Positions 179 through 45,255 of a stretch of DNA of 45,457 bases are shown piece after piece. The notes under the pieces were generated by a model that was given only the letters and a program-made list of their open reading frames with translations, did no database searches and was not told where the DNA came from. Each line of letters begins with the position of its first letter. Within the stretch, counting starts at the first letter, position 1. Both the position numbers and the translations under genes were made by a program. Source of the stretch: a virus; IMG/VR virus record IMGVR_UViG_3300036832_001852, positions 1-45,457 of that record; one strand, written 5' to 3'.

Positions 179-1608
179 CGCCATGGCAAGCGCAGCGGTC
201 TGCAGTAAGTGAATCATCGCAACAAATGGGGATGAACGTACCGCTGAACCCCGCCATGCAATTGCACCAGCAGATGCAGCAAACGCCAATGCAAGCGCAG
301 CCGACCACCAGCCAGCAAGTGTTCCGTCCGCAGGCTGGACCAAGCGCGGCAGCACAAGGCGGATATTTCTTGCCGCGCTACGATTCGCCCGAGGAAGCGC
401 AAGAGGGTGCTAAGCAAGCGGGAATCGGAATGGCCACTATGGGTGCGGGAGCTGGAGCGCGGGCGCTGCTCCCAGCGGTTGAAGGGGGCGGTGCGGGCAT
501 GAATGCGTTGCGGCTATTAGGTCGTTCGCTCATCACCGGTGGTGGCGCGGCTACGGGTGATATTGCGACCAGTGCGGCAGTTGGCCAGACACCAAGTGCC
601 AAGGAAGCTGCAATCGTTGGCGGCACGGGGGCCGCTGCAGAGCTGGCCGGTGGCACCATTGGAGCAGGCTGGAAAGCGGTCAAGAATCTGTTTAAAGCGG
701 ACCCAGCGGAAATTGCTCTGGCAGGCAAAATCCCAACGACGGAAGAACCGCTGTTGCAACGGGTGCAACAAGCAGAAGCGCAAAGTCGCGCTGCGAACAC
801 AGCGGCTTATGACAATCTAAAGATTGATGCCGCACCGGTGAATGTGACCGATGCTCGCATGGCTGCACAAGGCGCTGCGGAAGAATTAAGCCAGGTAGCC
901 AGCGTACCAAAAGCGATGAGCCGGGTTGGAGCCATCCCTGGCCCTTCCATTCCCCAGGAAATTTCTGGTGACCCACAACTCAATCAAATCTTTCGGGAGA
1001 TGACGGCCAACGACAACATCCCGTTTCGCCAAGCGCAGCAATACCGCAGCGCAATTGAACAATACATCTCTTCCTCGGGTGGTCTGCCGCGCAACGTCTA
1101 TAACTCATTGAAAGCGGTCTCTAATTCGCTCACCACTGCATTGCGCAGCACTGCAGATAAAGAAGGCAAGCTGGCCGGATTTGAAACTGCCGAAAGCATG
1201 TTCCAGCAACACGCTAAAGATTTCTGGGCTAAAAACGCGCCGCTGCGCAACTTTGTTCAACAGCGGGCCACGCCTGCAAAAATCCAGCCGGGTCAGACTG
1301 GCGCAGTGACCAACTACATGAAAGGAATCAATCAAGCCCGCGCGCTCGAAGTGCTGGACCGGCGCGGCATTCCAACCCAAGACATTCGCGACCTGTTGAA
1401 TAAAGACGTATCCAGTTCGGATATTCGGAATGCGAGGACCTTGCTGCGGAGTGGTCGGGGGCCATTGGATGCTCAGGCCAAAGCCGACAGATTAGCGCAA
1501 ATCAAAAAAGAGGCAGTTAGCGGAGGAATCAAAGGCGCTGCTGGCGCTACTGGTGCCGGTATCGTTGGCGGCAGCTTGCTCGCGCTCTACCGCGCTTTGA
1601 AGAAGTAG
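1..1608 (+). CDS. Internal virion / ejection-type protein (5' end cut by window edge)
   Basis: The frame is open from base 1 but has no true start here. The GTG at base 1 corresponds to Val9 of a protein whose ATG is at 45256, so the full product is about 543 residues. The N-terminal part reads as a small domain rich in polar residues, followed by a Q/P/A-rich linker. Two Gly/Ala-rich hydrophobic stretches lie near residues 140-160 and 485-530, and the last of these ends in a membrane-helix-like segment before a basic tail. The position directly after another Q-rich virion gene, at the end of the tail module, fits the ejection proteins of podoviruses. These leave the capsid and form a channel in the envelope. 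No enzymatic domain was recognised. The functional call is inference from position and composition. Confidence 0.6.
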   Translation: MYDSHGEYGTIPSEQMAQALTEGYKPVDAYVEAVDPKTKKSGILPKEQWAAAKAQGFTMTPWQAQRSAVSESSQQMGMNVPLNPAMQLHQQMQQTPMQAQPTTSQQVFRPQAGPSAAAQGGYFLPRYDSPEEAQEGAKQAGIGMATMGAGAGARALLPAVEGGGAGMNALRLLGRSLITGGGAATGDIATSAAVGQTPSAKEAAIVGGTGAAAELAGGTIGAGWKAVKNLFKADPAEIALAGKIPTTEEPLLQRVQQAEAQSRAANTAAYDNLKIDAAPVNVTDARMAAQGAAEELSQVASVPKAMSRVGAIPGPSIPQEISGDPQLNQIFREMTANDNIPFRQAQQYRSAIEQYISSSGGLPRNVYNSLKAVSNSLTTALRSTADKEGKLAGFETAESMFQQHAKDFWAKNAPLRNFVQQRATPAKIQPGQTGAVTNYMKGINQARALEVLDRRGIPTQDIRDLLNKDVSSSDIRNARTLLRSGRGPLDAQAKADRLAQIKKEAVSGGIKGAAGATGAGIVGGSLLALYRALKK

Positions 1609-1715
1609 GTCCTCCAATAGCGACAAGGAACCCGATGATGACCGGCAGAACAAATAAAAAGAGAAATGCAGGGTCCATATATCCATCCTAGCAATAAACG
1701 TAAACGGGGGCAACC

Positions 1716-10156: not shown

Positions 10157-10843
10157 ATGAAATCAATTTGGAATGTATATTCCGTGCATTTTACGTTTCT
10201 TGGTGACCTGTGCGCTTCCACACCAGCCGACCCTGAGCTGATGAAGAAATGGCTAGAAGCCCGTAAGCCTGCTGCTTTCCCGCCCGGTGGCCGCAGCATC
10301 GCCGAAATTCAAGAAGAGGTGTTTTCTACCATTGCGGTGGAAGAGTTGGAAGATGCCCAGACACAAAAAGAAAATCTGCTGGTCTTCCAACGCGTCGATG
10401 GCAATTTGGTGGAACGCACTGCGACCTTCCGTGCCCATATAAAAGATTGTGCCCGCGTACTCAGTGCGCAATACATTGGCAAAATGAAAGGGCAACGCTC
10501 ATTTGCCACTCGCATCGTCAATGGCGTGTACCACGACGAAAGGCAATATTGGACTACCATTCGCAAAGCGGACGGCGAACCTTTCACCGCTGTCGATGGA
10601 CAAAAAGAAAAAGCCATCCGTTTCCGTTTGCCGACCGGGCAGCAGATGAGTGCCATCAAAGTATTTGAATTCGTTCGCCAGGCCAACGTGGAATTCAATC
10701 TGAAAGTTCTGGGCAACTCTGTAAGCCGTGAAGACCTGGAAACGGTTTTCACTTACGGTGGTGTGCATGGTTATGCCGGGGAACGCGGTGACGGCGAAGG
10801 TCGCTACACATTTTCAATCGAGGAGAAAGAACATGCCGAGTAA
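10157..10843 (+). CDS. Conserved phage protein of unknown function
   Basis: 228 residues, start ATG 10157 with TGAGGAGACT upstream. The N-terminus begins with alternating strand residues (WNVYSVHFTFLGDL), followed by PADPELMKKWLEAR. The core contains FRAHIKDCARVLSAQY, FATRIVNGVYHD and a C-terminal segment with TYGGVHGYAGERGDGEGRY that looks like a Gly-rich loop. I have seen similar layouts (a PxDPEL..WL segment near the N-terminus) in phage early operons, without an assigned function. It overlaps the next gene by 11 bases. A nucleic-acid-binding role is possible but not shown. Confidence 0.65.
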   Translation: MKSIWNVYSVHFTFLGDLCASTPADPELMKKWLEARKPAAFPPGGRSIAEIQEEVFSTIAVEELEDAQTQKENLLVFQRVDGNLVERTATFRAHIKDCARVLSAQYIGKMKGQRSFATRIVNGVYHDERQYWTTIRKADGEPFTAVDGQKEKAIRFRLPTGQQMSAIKVFEFVRQANVEFNLKVLGNSVSREDLETVFTYGGVHGYAGERGDGEGRYTFSIEEKEHAE

Positions 10844-11072
10844 TGCCCTAGTGGCACTGAAAAGCGTCAATGACATCAGCGAGGCTTATGAATGGATGTT
10901 TAACGCGCAACGCGACGGGCAAATTGATGCCAAGACCGCTGACGCGTTGAACACCACGCTAAAAGGCGCAACCTATTTGCGCGTGAAATTGCGTATGGAT
11001 GCCGCGAAATTACTCATCCAGGCACAGATTAAGAAAGTTCAAATTCCAGAAAAGCTTTTGCCGGAACTGTAG
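10833..11072 (+). CDS. Small helical protein preceding the pentamer array
   Basis: 79 residues from ATG 10833, with GAGGAG 8 bases upstream. It is almost entirely helical: DISEAYEWMFNAQRDGQI, DAKTADALNTTLKGATYL, LRMDAAKLLIQAQIKKV. It ends with IPEKLLPEL. A compact three-helix bundle is likely. Small phage proteins of this kind are known to me only as hypothetical. Its TAG stop (11070-11072) is also the first edge of the pentamer array, so it is an obvious candidate to test for interaction with that array. Confidence 0.65.
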   Translation: MPSNALVALKSVNDISEAYEWMFNAQRDGQIDAKTADALNTTLKGATYLRVKLRMDAAKLLIQAQIKKVQIPEKLLPEL

Positions 11073-11791
11073 GCGAGGTCTTGCCTGAGGTGGATTGTTA
11101 TGCCGTGCCGCCGAGAGTTGGCGTGCGGTGTAGCGCGGTGTCGTGCCCTGTTATGTCGCCGAGCATTGGGCTGGAGTGCAGGGGGTTGGCGTGTCGTGAA
11201 ATGACGCCGAGGCCTGGACTGATGTGCCGTGTGGTGCCGCCGAGTACTGCAGTGGATTGGAGTGCAATGCAGCCGAGTTTTGACCCGGTGTGTGCTGTTG
11301 TGCTCTGACGCCGAGTATTGAGGTGGCCTGAGCTGGCTTGCGGTGAAATGATTTGCCGCCGAGAAATGACATGTGTTGGTTTGGTCTGTCGTGCCGCCGA
11401 GGATTGTCGTGCCATGATTTGAGCTGCAGCCGAGTTTTGTTGTGCGCCGGGTTGGACTGCGCTGGCTTGTCGTGCCGTGCCGCCGAGACGTGCGCTGCAA
11501 TGTTTCGGCTTGCATTGACGCCGAGGTTTGGCGTGTCGTGCGCTGAGGTGCCGCCGAGTAGCGTAATGCCGTGAAGACGAGACGTGGTCTGGCGTGTTCT
11601 GAAGCCGAGTGCTGTCCTGCGATGAACTGAGCTGTAGCCGAGAATTGTCGTGCCATGGGGTGACCCGCTGTGTCTTGCCATGTCGCCGAGGGATGATTCG
11701 GTGTGTTTTGCTTTGTCGTGATGTGAACTGTCGCCAAGAAATGATATGTCGTGCCATGCCCTGCATTGGGTTGTCGCCGAGGAGTGAAATG
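11072..11791 (+). repeat. Pentamer-periodic array (CCGAG-(NNNTG)n-NNG blocks)
   Basis: From the stop codon of the preceding gene to the start codon of rusA the sequence can be cut without remainder into 18 complete blocks. Each is CCGAG, then n pentamers NNNTG, then NNG. Block lengths are 38, 48, 48, 33, 33, 38, 48, 38, 33, 53, 38, 33, 23, 28, 33, 48, 48 and 43, which is always 8 + 5n with n from 3 to 9. By my count 103 of 112 pentamers end in TG and 7 more end in CG. The separator is CCGAG except GCGAG (first), ACGAG (11577-11581) and CCAAG (11734-11738). The base before it is always G. A 19th separator and two pentamers (GAGTG, AAATG) follow, and the ATG of the last pentamer is the rusA start. 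All three minus-strand frames are largely open, but a 5-base period cannot be a coding signal. I know no family like it. Confidence 0.93.
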
Positions 11792-12172
11792 AACCACATT
11801 ATTACTATCCCGTTAGTTCCACCCAGCCCTAACGAGCTGCGGCGTAAATACCGTCATCCACTCGCTTACCGCAAACTGCGCAAGCTCTGGGAGCAGGAAT
11901 TGTTCTACGGAATGGCTTGCTCCCGCCATCGGCAAGAGTTGCTTGCTGCCGCTGCCGCCAGTGAACGCATGCGGGTGGAAATTGTGGTGCACCACACAAA
12001 AGAATTTGACCCTGACAATTTGCCGGGTGCTTGCAAACCAATCTTGGATGCCATGAAGAATTGCGGTTACATCGTTGATGACAATGAGAAAAAGTTACAA
12101 CTCATCCCGCCTGCCCAGGTGCTCAGCCAAGAGAAAAAAACAGTCATCAAGATTGGCCCCAGTGTTCCGTGA
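11789..12172 (+). CDS. rusA: RusA-family Holliday junction resolvase
   Basis: 127 residues from ATG 11789. The RusA family cuts Holliday junctions symmetrically as a dimer. Visible features are the N-terminal strand HIITIPLVPPSPNELRRKY, the acidic motif EFDPDNLPGACKPILDAM (the DxDN/DNxxKxxLD-type signature with catalytic aspartates and a Lys) and NCGYIVDDNEKKLQLIPPAQ (the DD pair). It completes the exonuclease, RecT, resolvase set of this operon. The reading frame extends upstream to 11609 only through the array, so the upstream extension is not real. Its ribosome site GAGGAG is supplied by the last array block. Confidence 0.92.
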   Translation: MNHIITIPLVPPSPNELRRKYRHPLAYRKLRKLWEQELFYGMACSRHRQELLAAAAASERMRVEIVVHHTKEFDPDNLPGACKPILDAMKNCGYIVDDNEKKLQLIPPAQVLSQEKKTVIKIGPSVP

Positions 12173-43700: not shown

Positions 43701-45255
43701 CACCCAAACTCCAAACCAGGCACTGCTCACCGACAATCCTGAGCTGATGAACTTTGCGTTGATGGACCGCGCCAATGCGTCAGTGCCGAATCCCCCGCCA
43801 CCGACAACGCCACCGCCAGTTGGTCCAGCACCAGATTTAGGCACCGGTACTCCCCCGCCAAATCAATTAGACCTGAATCAATTTGCCGGTCCCAGCCAGC
43901 AACCACAGCAGCCAGCCGTACCAAAGCAGAGCAATGTTCCCGCGTTGTACGGTTTCATGAAACAGATGTTTGGTGGCCAGGACCAGCGAGGCTATCAAAA
44001 CGCCCCGCCAGGCCAACCAGGTCGCCCCAATTCCCGGTTGGATGCGTTTGAAAACTTCCTGGGGAATTTTCTTAACAGTTTTTCTAGCGGCATGTCCAAC
44101 GCTGGCCAAGGTCCCGCTGCCAATGCGCGTGGTTTCGGCGCTGCGGTGCAGGCTCCCTATCAGCGCCAGGTCCAGCAATATCAGATGGGGCAGCAGGCGC
44201 AGGTACAGCAAGCGCAGATTCAACAAGCGCAGGCCGAAGCGCAATTGAAGACTGCCGAGTCGCAGATGGTCACGGTGAAAGGCCCAGACGGCACTGAGCG
44301 CACGATGCCTGCATCTCTCGCCAAAGGGATTATACAGGCGGATGTTACCGGCCAGTGGAAAGTCAAAACAGCAGAGACGGCTGGCGAATTGAGAGTAAAA
44401 GCAGCGGGCACTCAAAAGCCTTATATGTCCACGCCGTTTGGTGTGCTGGACACGCGCACCGGAAAGTATCTGGATGCTAAAGGTGGCGGTCTTGACATCA
44501 CAACAGAAATGGCCCAGCAACTTGGTTTGCCACCCCAGGCTGTTGGTCAGAAATTAGCAATGGGACAGTTCGCAGCGCTGGAAAAAGCGAAAGCTGCGAC
44601 ACAAACGGTGGCCCAAGGAGCGGCAGGGCCATCGCTGGTCGATAAATTAAACGGCAGAACTACGCCACTCAATCTTGGTTCGCCTCAAGCAAATAGTATG
44701 GCCCAGGCAAGGCAAGACCTGGCGGAACGGAAATACACCCAATACAACCAGGCGTTAGGCCCAGCGGCGCAGAAAACATTGATGGAAACCGTTCCGGTGC
44801 ATTCGCAGATTCAGGGGCTGATGTCGCAATTTGAAAGCATGAAAGACGACAACACGTCTGGCAAATTTGCTGAAGAACGTTTGCTGTATGCGATTGGTCA
44901 GCAAAGTCCGATTGGTGACATGGCCGGGAAGACCAACGACACCATTGCCAACCTGGAACTAAACCGGGTGGTTGGAGCAGCGCGCGTGCTGAAAGGTGGC
45001 AGCCGTTCAATCGAGGCATTGAACATGGCCATGAAGCACTTGCCGAATGTGTGGGTGGACAGCCCGAAATTGATTTACAGCAAGCTGAGCAATTTGAATG
45101 ACGCGCTGCAACAGATTGAAGACGATGCCTACACCTATGGGAAGAAGAGTGGTGTAGTGCCGCCACAAAATGCAACGCCGCCCGCTCCAGCAGCCGGTGG
45201 TGGCCCAGGCGCTGCTAAAGGGAAGATTCACTTTACGCCGCATGAACGGCAATAA
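43687..45255 (+). CDS. Q-rich ejection-type virion protein
   Basis: 522 residues. The N-terminal 130 residues are Pro/Gln/Asn-rich linker (PNPPPPTTPPPVGPAP, PSQQPQQPAVPKQ). A helical region with heptad-like QQAQVQQAQIQQAQAEAQLK lies near 165-195. The C-terminal half is helical with acidic pairs (VPVHSQIQGLMSQFESMKDD, EERLLYAIGQQSPIGD, LELNRVVGAARVLKGG). The product contains no membrane segment. Between two other virion genes of the same type, it suits the set of proteins ejected with the DNA. Its stop is immediately followed by the ATG of the terminal gene at 45256. Confidence 0.6.
   Translation: MPDDSTQTPNQALLTDNPELMNFALMDRANASVPNPPPPTTPPPVGPAPDLGTGTPPPNQLDLNQFAGPSQQPQQPAVPKQSNVPALYGFMKQMFGGQDQRGYQNAPPGQPGRPNSRLDAFENFLGNFLNSFSSGMSNAGQGPAANARGFGAAVQAPYQRQVQQYQMGQQAQVQQAQIQQAQAEAQLKTAESQMVTVKGPDGTERTMPASLAKGIIQADVTGQWKVKTAETAGELRVKAAGTQKPYMSTPFGVLDTRTGKYLDAKGGGLDITTEMAQQLGLPPQAVGQKLAMGQFAALEKAKAATQTVAQGAAGPSLVDKLNGRTTPLNLGSPQANSMAQARQDLAERKYTQYNQALGPAAQKTLMETVPVHSQIQGLMSQFESMKDDNTSGKFAEERLLYAIGQQSPIGDMAGKTNDTIANLELNRVVGAARVLKGGSRSIEALNMAMKHLPNVWVDSPKLIYSKLSNLNDALQQIEDDAYTYGKKSGVVPPQNATPPAPAAGGGPGAAKGKIHFTPHERQ

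Follow-up and report, generated by a model that had tools for sequence, protein, structure and literature searches.

The closest described systems are those of VIPR, in which a phage RAMP protein works with guide RNAs built from 9-16 YNNGG repeats (PMC13142463; bioRxiv 2026.04.26.720920). The two N bases of each repeat pair with the target and one target base is skipped per repeat, at the codon wobble position, and the guides are directed against rival phages and satellites as well as against other VIPR loci (PMC13142463). Vipr also has a thumb domain that contacts RNA, and the guide RNA is expressed and bound by the protein (PMC13142463). Seven types have been distinguished, type II being that of phage SUSP1, and the constant part of the repeat is given as GGY or, as the authors allow, "a related consensus" (PMC13142463). 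In the SUSP1 locus, the intergenic region next to vipr (ALH47069) holds an NNGGY array. We located relatives in Medea1, LittleE, Trine, phiHSIC, UmaThurman and Florinda, and in every one of them except Medea1 a 5-nt array was detected beside the gene, most of these five arrays being of the NNGGY form. The array of phiHSIC reads NNRGC (L249, 3148-3391), and those of UmaThurman (L250, 3084-3394) and Florinda (L251, 1715-1898) are NNGGY/NNGGC arrays broken into blocks; all three sit beside genes annotated "hypothetical protein". A Felixounavirus-type vipr was also seen at 98.5% identity in the record of Staphylococcus phage SA1 (GU169904.1, 91679-92263), an identity that suggests this record is chimeric or mislabelled.

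The locus described here lies in IMG/VR record IMGVR_UViG_3300036832_001852, and the window is the whole 45,457-nt stretch of viral DNA that was analysed. The window phage is temperate and podovirus-like, and carries integrase, terminase and SU10-type portal genes. We consider it very probable that the locus is a phage RNA-guided system of the VIPR kind, in which a RAMP protein is combined with a small accessory protein and a series of guide RNAs, a reading for which the sequences themselves supply the grammar of the array, its linkage and fixed strand, the predicted fold of its partner and, in related phages, the geometry of the code.

The candidate guide array occupies positions 11070-11791 on the plus strand and is composed of 19 separators of the form nnnYCGAG and blocks of (NNNTG)n, with n mostly 5-9. 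The strict 5-base period that a first-pass annotation reported over 720 bp is real and sharply bounded, and the autocorrelation it called for has a clear peak at lag 5 (0.44, with 0.41 and 0.40 at lags 10 and 15, vs. ~0.25 for the whole window). Pairs of TG at lag 5 number 79 in the array vs. 18.7 ± 3.8 in dinucleotide shuffles (z 15.7; maximum 32 in 1000 shuffles), and no 720-nt stretch elsewhere in the window has more than 13. A dynamic-programming parse yields 115 pentamers including two end units, of which 106 end in TG, 7 in CG, 1 in TT and 1 in GG, close to the 103 of 112 TG pentamers counted by hand in the annotation. The parse also recovers the CCGAG separators with three one-base variants (16 CCGAG, 1 GCGAG, 1 ACGAG and 1 CCAAG); CCGAG is indeed present in the window, but the separator is better written as the 8-nt nnnYCGAG, and the description of the blocks as always closed by G fails across the family, where ACT and ATT also occur.

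The boundaries proposed for the array are borne out by the parse. Its first separator (TAGGCGAG, 11070-11077) overlaps the end of a 79-aa ORF, whose stop codon TAG (11070-11072) forms the nnn, and its final pentamer ends in the ATG of rusA at 11789. The longest block (n=9, 11435-11479) carries the triplets TTT TTG CGC GGT GAC CGC GCT TCG CCG, and two blocks with n=8 carry GGA ATT GTG TTT CTT TCG ATG AAC (11691-11730) and AGT GCG CGG TAG CGG TCG CCC TTA (11116-11155). That the array is non-coding is supported as well: protein coding was rejected in every frame, the 8-nt separators shifting the frame, and the long ORFs (233-252 aa) that cross the array on the minus strand arise because CANNN rarely yields stops. 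No RNA structure beyond that of shuffles was detected for the whole array (z -0.13), TRF reported no tandem repeat over it, and the module has no significant match in searches for tRNAs or against Rfam, Pfam, PHROG and PDB sequences. Elsewhere in the window, a 15-bp tandem repeat, CAGCAAGCGCAGGTA, is present in 2.9 copies at 44191-44233, where a large ORF lies.

The partner of the array is a vipr-like gene of 228 aa at 10157-10843 on the plus strand, with a C-terminal G-loop, HGYAGERGDGEGRY. The protein has no significant family match in Pfam, PHROGs or PDB sequences. Its AlphaFold (AF2) model, made with 26 natural homologues, reaches pLDDT 88.3 and pTM 0.82, and its top Foldseek matches in the PDB are type VII CRISPR Cas7 (E 2.8e-7) and type III-A Csm3; VIA-align to Cas7/Csm3 gives Z 13.3 over 173 residues with an rmsd of 5.5. 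One match among viral models bears the annotation "Cas system-associated RAMP superfamily protein". The C-terminal HGYxGERxxGxGRY, nearly invariant among homologues, reads as the glycine-rich loop of RAMPs, and the protein as modelled has a RAMP/Cas7 fold. Profile-profile comparison with the Vipr clade of SUSP1 indicates moderate similarity (E 1.2e-4, probability 55, 134 columns including the G-loop), and the window system is probably homologous to VIPR.

Homologues of this gene are present in 32 other loci to which the array pattern alone had led, and a search by protein recovered homologues in 55 loci. In all 79 loci with both parts, equivalent to 45 distinct vipr genes, the array is on the vipr strand, usually 0-400 nt downstream; about 45 distinct phage loci carry such arrays. 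The first-pass annotation had interpreted the array as a binding ladder of fixed step, which is probably right in kind: the gene immediately upstream, in the same orientation, encodes a protein with a predicted RAMP/Cas7 fold, and proteins of this fold typically polymerise along guide RNA. The triplets are not merely free, however, since N1N2 behave like a guide that reads codons.

A candidate accessory gene (vap-like) of 79 aa spans 10833-11072 on the plus strand. A two-helix hairpin is predicted for its product (AF2 pLDDT 86.4, helices 12-27 and 33-63). Clustering identified a homologous ORF in 23 of the 45 loci, and iterative search extended the family to 29 distinct sequences, located on either side of the array and none with a Pfam match. 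The rusA-like resolvase gene that follows (11789-12172, plus strand; PHROG 34, E 2.8e-7) is a neighbour outside the module: RecT, YqaJ and RusA, all near the window array, are not conserved beside other arrays, and no RusA relatives were found in viral contigs. No cas genes were seen among the window proteins scanned, nor was there any other conserved neighbour.

The pattern search in other genomes that the annotation had suggested was productive. One exact pattern built from the grammar matched 57 IMG/VR stretches, many more than once, and the parsed matches are long arrays in dozens of phages; the 5-base register, on which the annotation had staked its reading, is kept in these relatives. 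A pattern lacking CCGAG returned mostly low-complexity runs. In 406 blocks of the family, n mostly ranges from 4 to 9; base usage at N1 and N2 is nearly even, G is favoured at N3 (44%), and the T and G of the constant part are conserved at 87% and 97%. The three bases before YCGAG are near constant within many arrays and vary from phage to phage (AAG, ACG, TAG, ATG, ACT). Arrays terminate in YCGAG, with no common sequence noticed downstream, and between the near-identical sister phages L024 and L029 one whole block has been lost through a clean deletion of 38 nt.

Two of the 45 loci are bacterial MAG contigs, in which the same module was seen in Dehalococcoidia and Elusimicrobia (L188, 6655-7349; L189, 7098-7764); these contigs are probably prophages, and they were the only two finds in a pattern-based search of 84,980 species genomes. 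Arrays with no detected partner sit at the edges of the DNA examined, except in L023, and in L012 and L032 the vipr partner lies elsewhere on the contig. The L023 array (~1390-1709, minus strand) has clear blocks with ACGNCGAG separators and no vipr homologue anywhere in its 43-kb record, and may be used by the protein of another element. Three arrays, all on the same strand, were observed in L207 (8594-8905, 10778-11191 and 17249-17487; also L208-L210), one of them 6.6 kb away from vipr. At the start of one viral contig, a near-pure (TGTGC/CGCTG)n tract without CGAG separators (L121, 35-429) looks like a simple repeat rather than a guide array.

When compared with VIPR, the window system has in common a single phage RAMP, a small accessory gene (vap) and intergenic tandem 5-nt repeats, and its relatives appear to share the reading of two bases, the wobble skip and the use of guides against competitors, VIPR loci included. 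SUSP1 and its relatives are built in the same way, with NNGGY or NNRGC repeats. The RAMP fold with RRM core and G-loop of Vipr is predicted for the window protein, the minimal and mostly viral locus with an accessory gene recurs (45 loci, the small ORF in 23 of them), and the window array consists of tandem pentanucleotides with constant and hypervariable parts. The repeat itself differs, its constant part being UG (NNNUG) where VIPR has GGY, which is absent here. Blocks of ~4-9 repeats separated by nnnYCGAG replace the 9-16 repeats of the SUSP1 type, and arrays hold up to some 20-40 blocks whereas VIPR has a few ~100-nt RNAs. The structured 3′ tail of type II was not seen in the arrays, the window protein (~228 aa) has only remote similarity to Vipr, and the accessory ORF has no family match. 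Because GGY is not found, and NNNUG may or may not fall within the "related consensus", we refer to the system as a divergent variant and do not assign it to one of the seven VIPR types. The annotation had known of no described element of this form, which in general no longer holds because VIPR vrRNAs are tandem pentanucleotide guides (PMC13142463), although the UG/CGAG form is absent from the main text of that report.

With Cas7 and Csm3 of types VII and III-A, the window protein shares the whole-chain fold and the glycine-rich loop, and a guide-RNA filament would be expected here too. Class 1 CRISPR systems, however, have a cas operon and identical repeats with spacers, neither of which was seen at this locus, where separators are 8 nt and variable; their 6-nt periodicity and palindromic repeats also differ from the 5-nt, non-palindromic arrays described here. 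TIGR arrays are composed of TIGR repeats with paired short spacers. TIGR-Tas (PMC12045711) is likewise a phage-associated non-CRISPR guide array, whereas here the protein has a predicted RAMP fold and the repeat is a 5-nt ladder.

In the mechanism we propose, the array would be transcribed together with vipr, each block between CGAG separators would constitute one guide of ~28-53 nt, and CGAG would act as a processing site or handle. As the fold and VIPR suggest, one RAMP subunit would hold each NNNUG via its UG. The first two bases of the triplet would pair with DNA and, with three target bases per repeat, one would be skipped. This skipped base would fall on the codon wobble of conserved motifs of competing phages, namely the vipr G-loop, VTDPPYG and a prohead protease motif, with integrase, terminase and capsid motifs probably serving as further targets. 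By analogy with VIPR, binding of the guide to DNA would silence the target genes.

We evaluated this code by searching all 469 unique blocks against the phage DNA of the analysis, with arrays masked and under several rules, using guides with permuted triplet order as controls. The rule "N1N2, three target bases per repeat" was the only one with a clear excess (50 distinct-sequence matches vs. 7-15 for permuted guides), the counts being dominated by one guide and the excess coming mainly from a few, each convincing by itself. Other target steps (2, 4, 5 and 6) and other pairs of triplet positions were near the permuted controls, and the top matches at step 5 came from an unmasked degenerate array in L212. 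In a later count, the matches of block 4047 of L017 and of two scanned window blocks were inflated because DNA had been fetched with those very patterns; the 50 vs. 7-15 comparison is less biased.

The strongest case is block 3994 of L042 (CAT GGG TAC GCG GGT GAG CGG AGA GAC GGA), which matches the G-loop codons HGYAGERSDG of vipr in several other phages at 20/20 N1N2 positions. L042's own vipr uses switched Arg/Ser codons (AGA and TCC) for this peptide and thus has three mismatches to the guide. Block 4047 of L017 is antisense to VTDPPYG, a DNA methyltransferase motif, with 16/16 in three loci; its pattern matched at least 120 IMG/VR contigs, and among the listed matches 103 of 121 are wobble-phased in methyltransferase genes (Pfam N6_N4_Mtase), most of the remainder having a longer opposite-strand ORF over similar sequence. 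The same pattern had no match in 295 genomes of one phylum, where by rough estimate few would be expected at IMG/VR density. Block 3684 of L060 is antisense to TLNDRVDEAW (RV[DE]EAW motif) and matches the prohead protease-capsid genes of L025 and L190 at 17/20, wobble-phased, and a second L060 block is antisense to TKDRVDEAW. Weaker candidates in the right phase include the integrase motif HDLRHTF (15/16), terminase (14/14) and the capsid motif GSTTDATWA (17/20). Taken as sequence evidence, these matches support a code in related phages in which two bases are read per repeat and the skip falls on the codon wobble. Separately, one guide, CAC TTG TCG GCG AAG TTT TCG (antisense to ENFADK), is common to arrays L061, L064, L195, L199 and L212; its U position varies while its N bases are nearly fixed.

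Whether the third triplet base is skipped bears on the alternative that survives best, to which we give a small but real chance: a contiguous code in which all three N are read, with no skip and with UG bulged out. It could explain the AT-rich arrays, in which N3 varies almost as much as N1 and N2 do, and the guide shared by five arrays, in which every N3 is identical and the U is variable. The vipr genes matched at 20/20 by the L042 guide argue against it, since N3 agrees there at only 2-6 of 10 positions and the guide triplet AGA is incompatible with Ser/Gly at that target codon. Between sister arrays, 4 of the 5 substitutions counted are at N3, too few to decide how N3 evolves, and N3 has a G bias despite the presence of targets on both strands. 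A third base skipped as in VIPR is favoured by these sequences, without certainty.

Less probable still, and in our view unlikely, is an RNA-targeting variant in which the RAMP-guide complex binds the mRNA of rivals, like type III, type VII and Cas7-11, and not their DNA. The nearest solved folds, type VII Cas7 and Csm3, do come from RNA-targeting complexes, and the guides of L017, L060, L041 and L044 are antisense to their target genes. The strongest guide, however, that of L042 against vipr, is sense sequence and unable to pair with mRNA, and the terminase match of the L214 guide is sense too; the presence of both orientations therefore speaks against mRNA as the sole target. In VIPR as published, double-stranded DNA is bound, on either strand (PMC13142463).

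We regard it as very improbable that the array is a double-stranded DNA ladder bound by a protein as a partition, packaging or origin site. A fixed 5-bp step, an intergenic position and a strong G/TG strand bias would suit such a site, but the array keeps to the strand of vipr in all 79 loci, the predicted RAMP fold of the partner implies RNA binding, and a plain binding site would not be expected to agree with codons of rival genes as these triplets do, far more often than permuted guides. An RNA leader like that of TRAP, with motifs ~5 nt apart binding a ring protein that controls downstream genes, has a similar pentamer spacing but is scarcely credible: TRAP sites are (G/U)AG with 2-3-nt spacers and the constant repeated here is TG (UG) at positions 4-5, the downstream gene is not conserved (rusA occurs in the window only), the conserved partner is a RAMP rather than TRAP, and sister phages differ by loss of a whole block.

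For the window's own guides, the IMG/VR scans and the 295 genomes of one phylum yielded no targets, with no match at all in the latter. In IMG/VR, the n=9 block had one match, at chance level and not codon-phased in the likely gene; the n=8 block at 11691-11730 had 49 matches, one redundant phage clade accounting for about half; and the n=8 block at 11116-11155 had 6 matches, again at chance level and one of them in an RNA-phage replicase. Both n=8 blocks equal in length the L017 block, whose pattern matched at least 120 contigs. Self-targeting by window guides was not above that of permuted guides.

Returning to the RNA-guided, DNA-binding reading, we judge the chances to be evenly balanced that the module represents a separate, undescribed VIPR-like type in uncultivated phages, with NNNUG multi-guide arrays and CGAG handles, guides against near-universal protein motifs, a wobble skip by which one guide covers a whole gene family, and self-escape by switching Arg/Ser codon families. 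VIPR, described only in 2026, has been put forward as the ancestor of the RAMPs of CRISPR. If true, a second repeat chemistry with the same geometry (UG vs. GGY) would reveal what is universal in the code, and the CRISPR-array-like organisation of these long arrays, with deletion of whole blocks, bears on the origins of guide arrays. By using codon positions 1 and 2 to reach catalytic motifs, such guides would attack protein families at the DNA level. UG-type effectors may broaden the tools for programmable repression, and the natural library of hundreds of guides would make phage-phage warfare directly readable.
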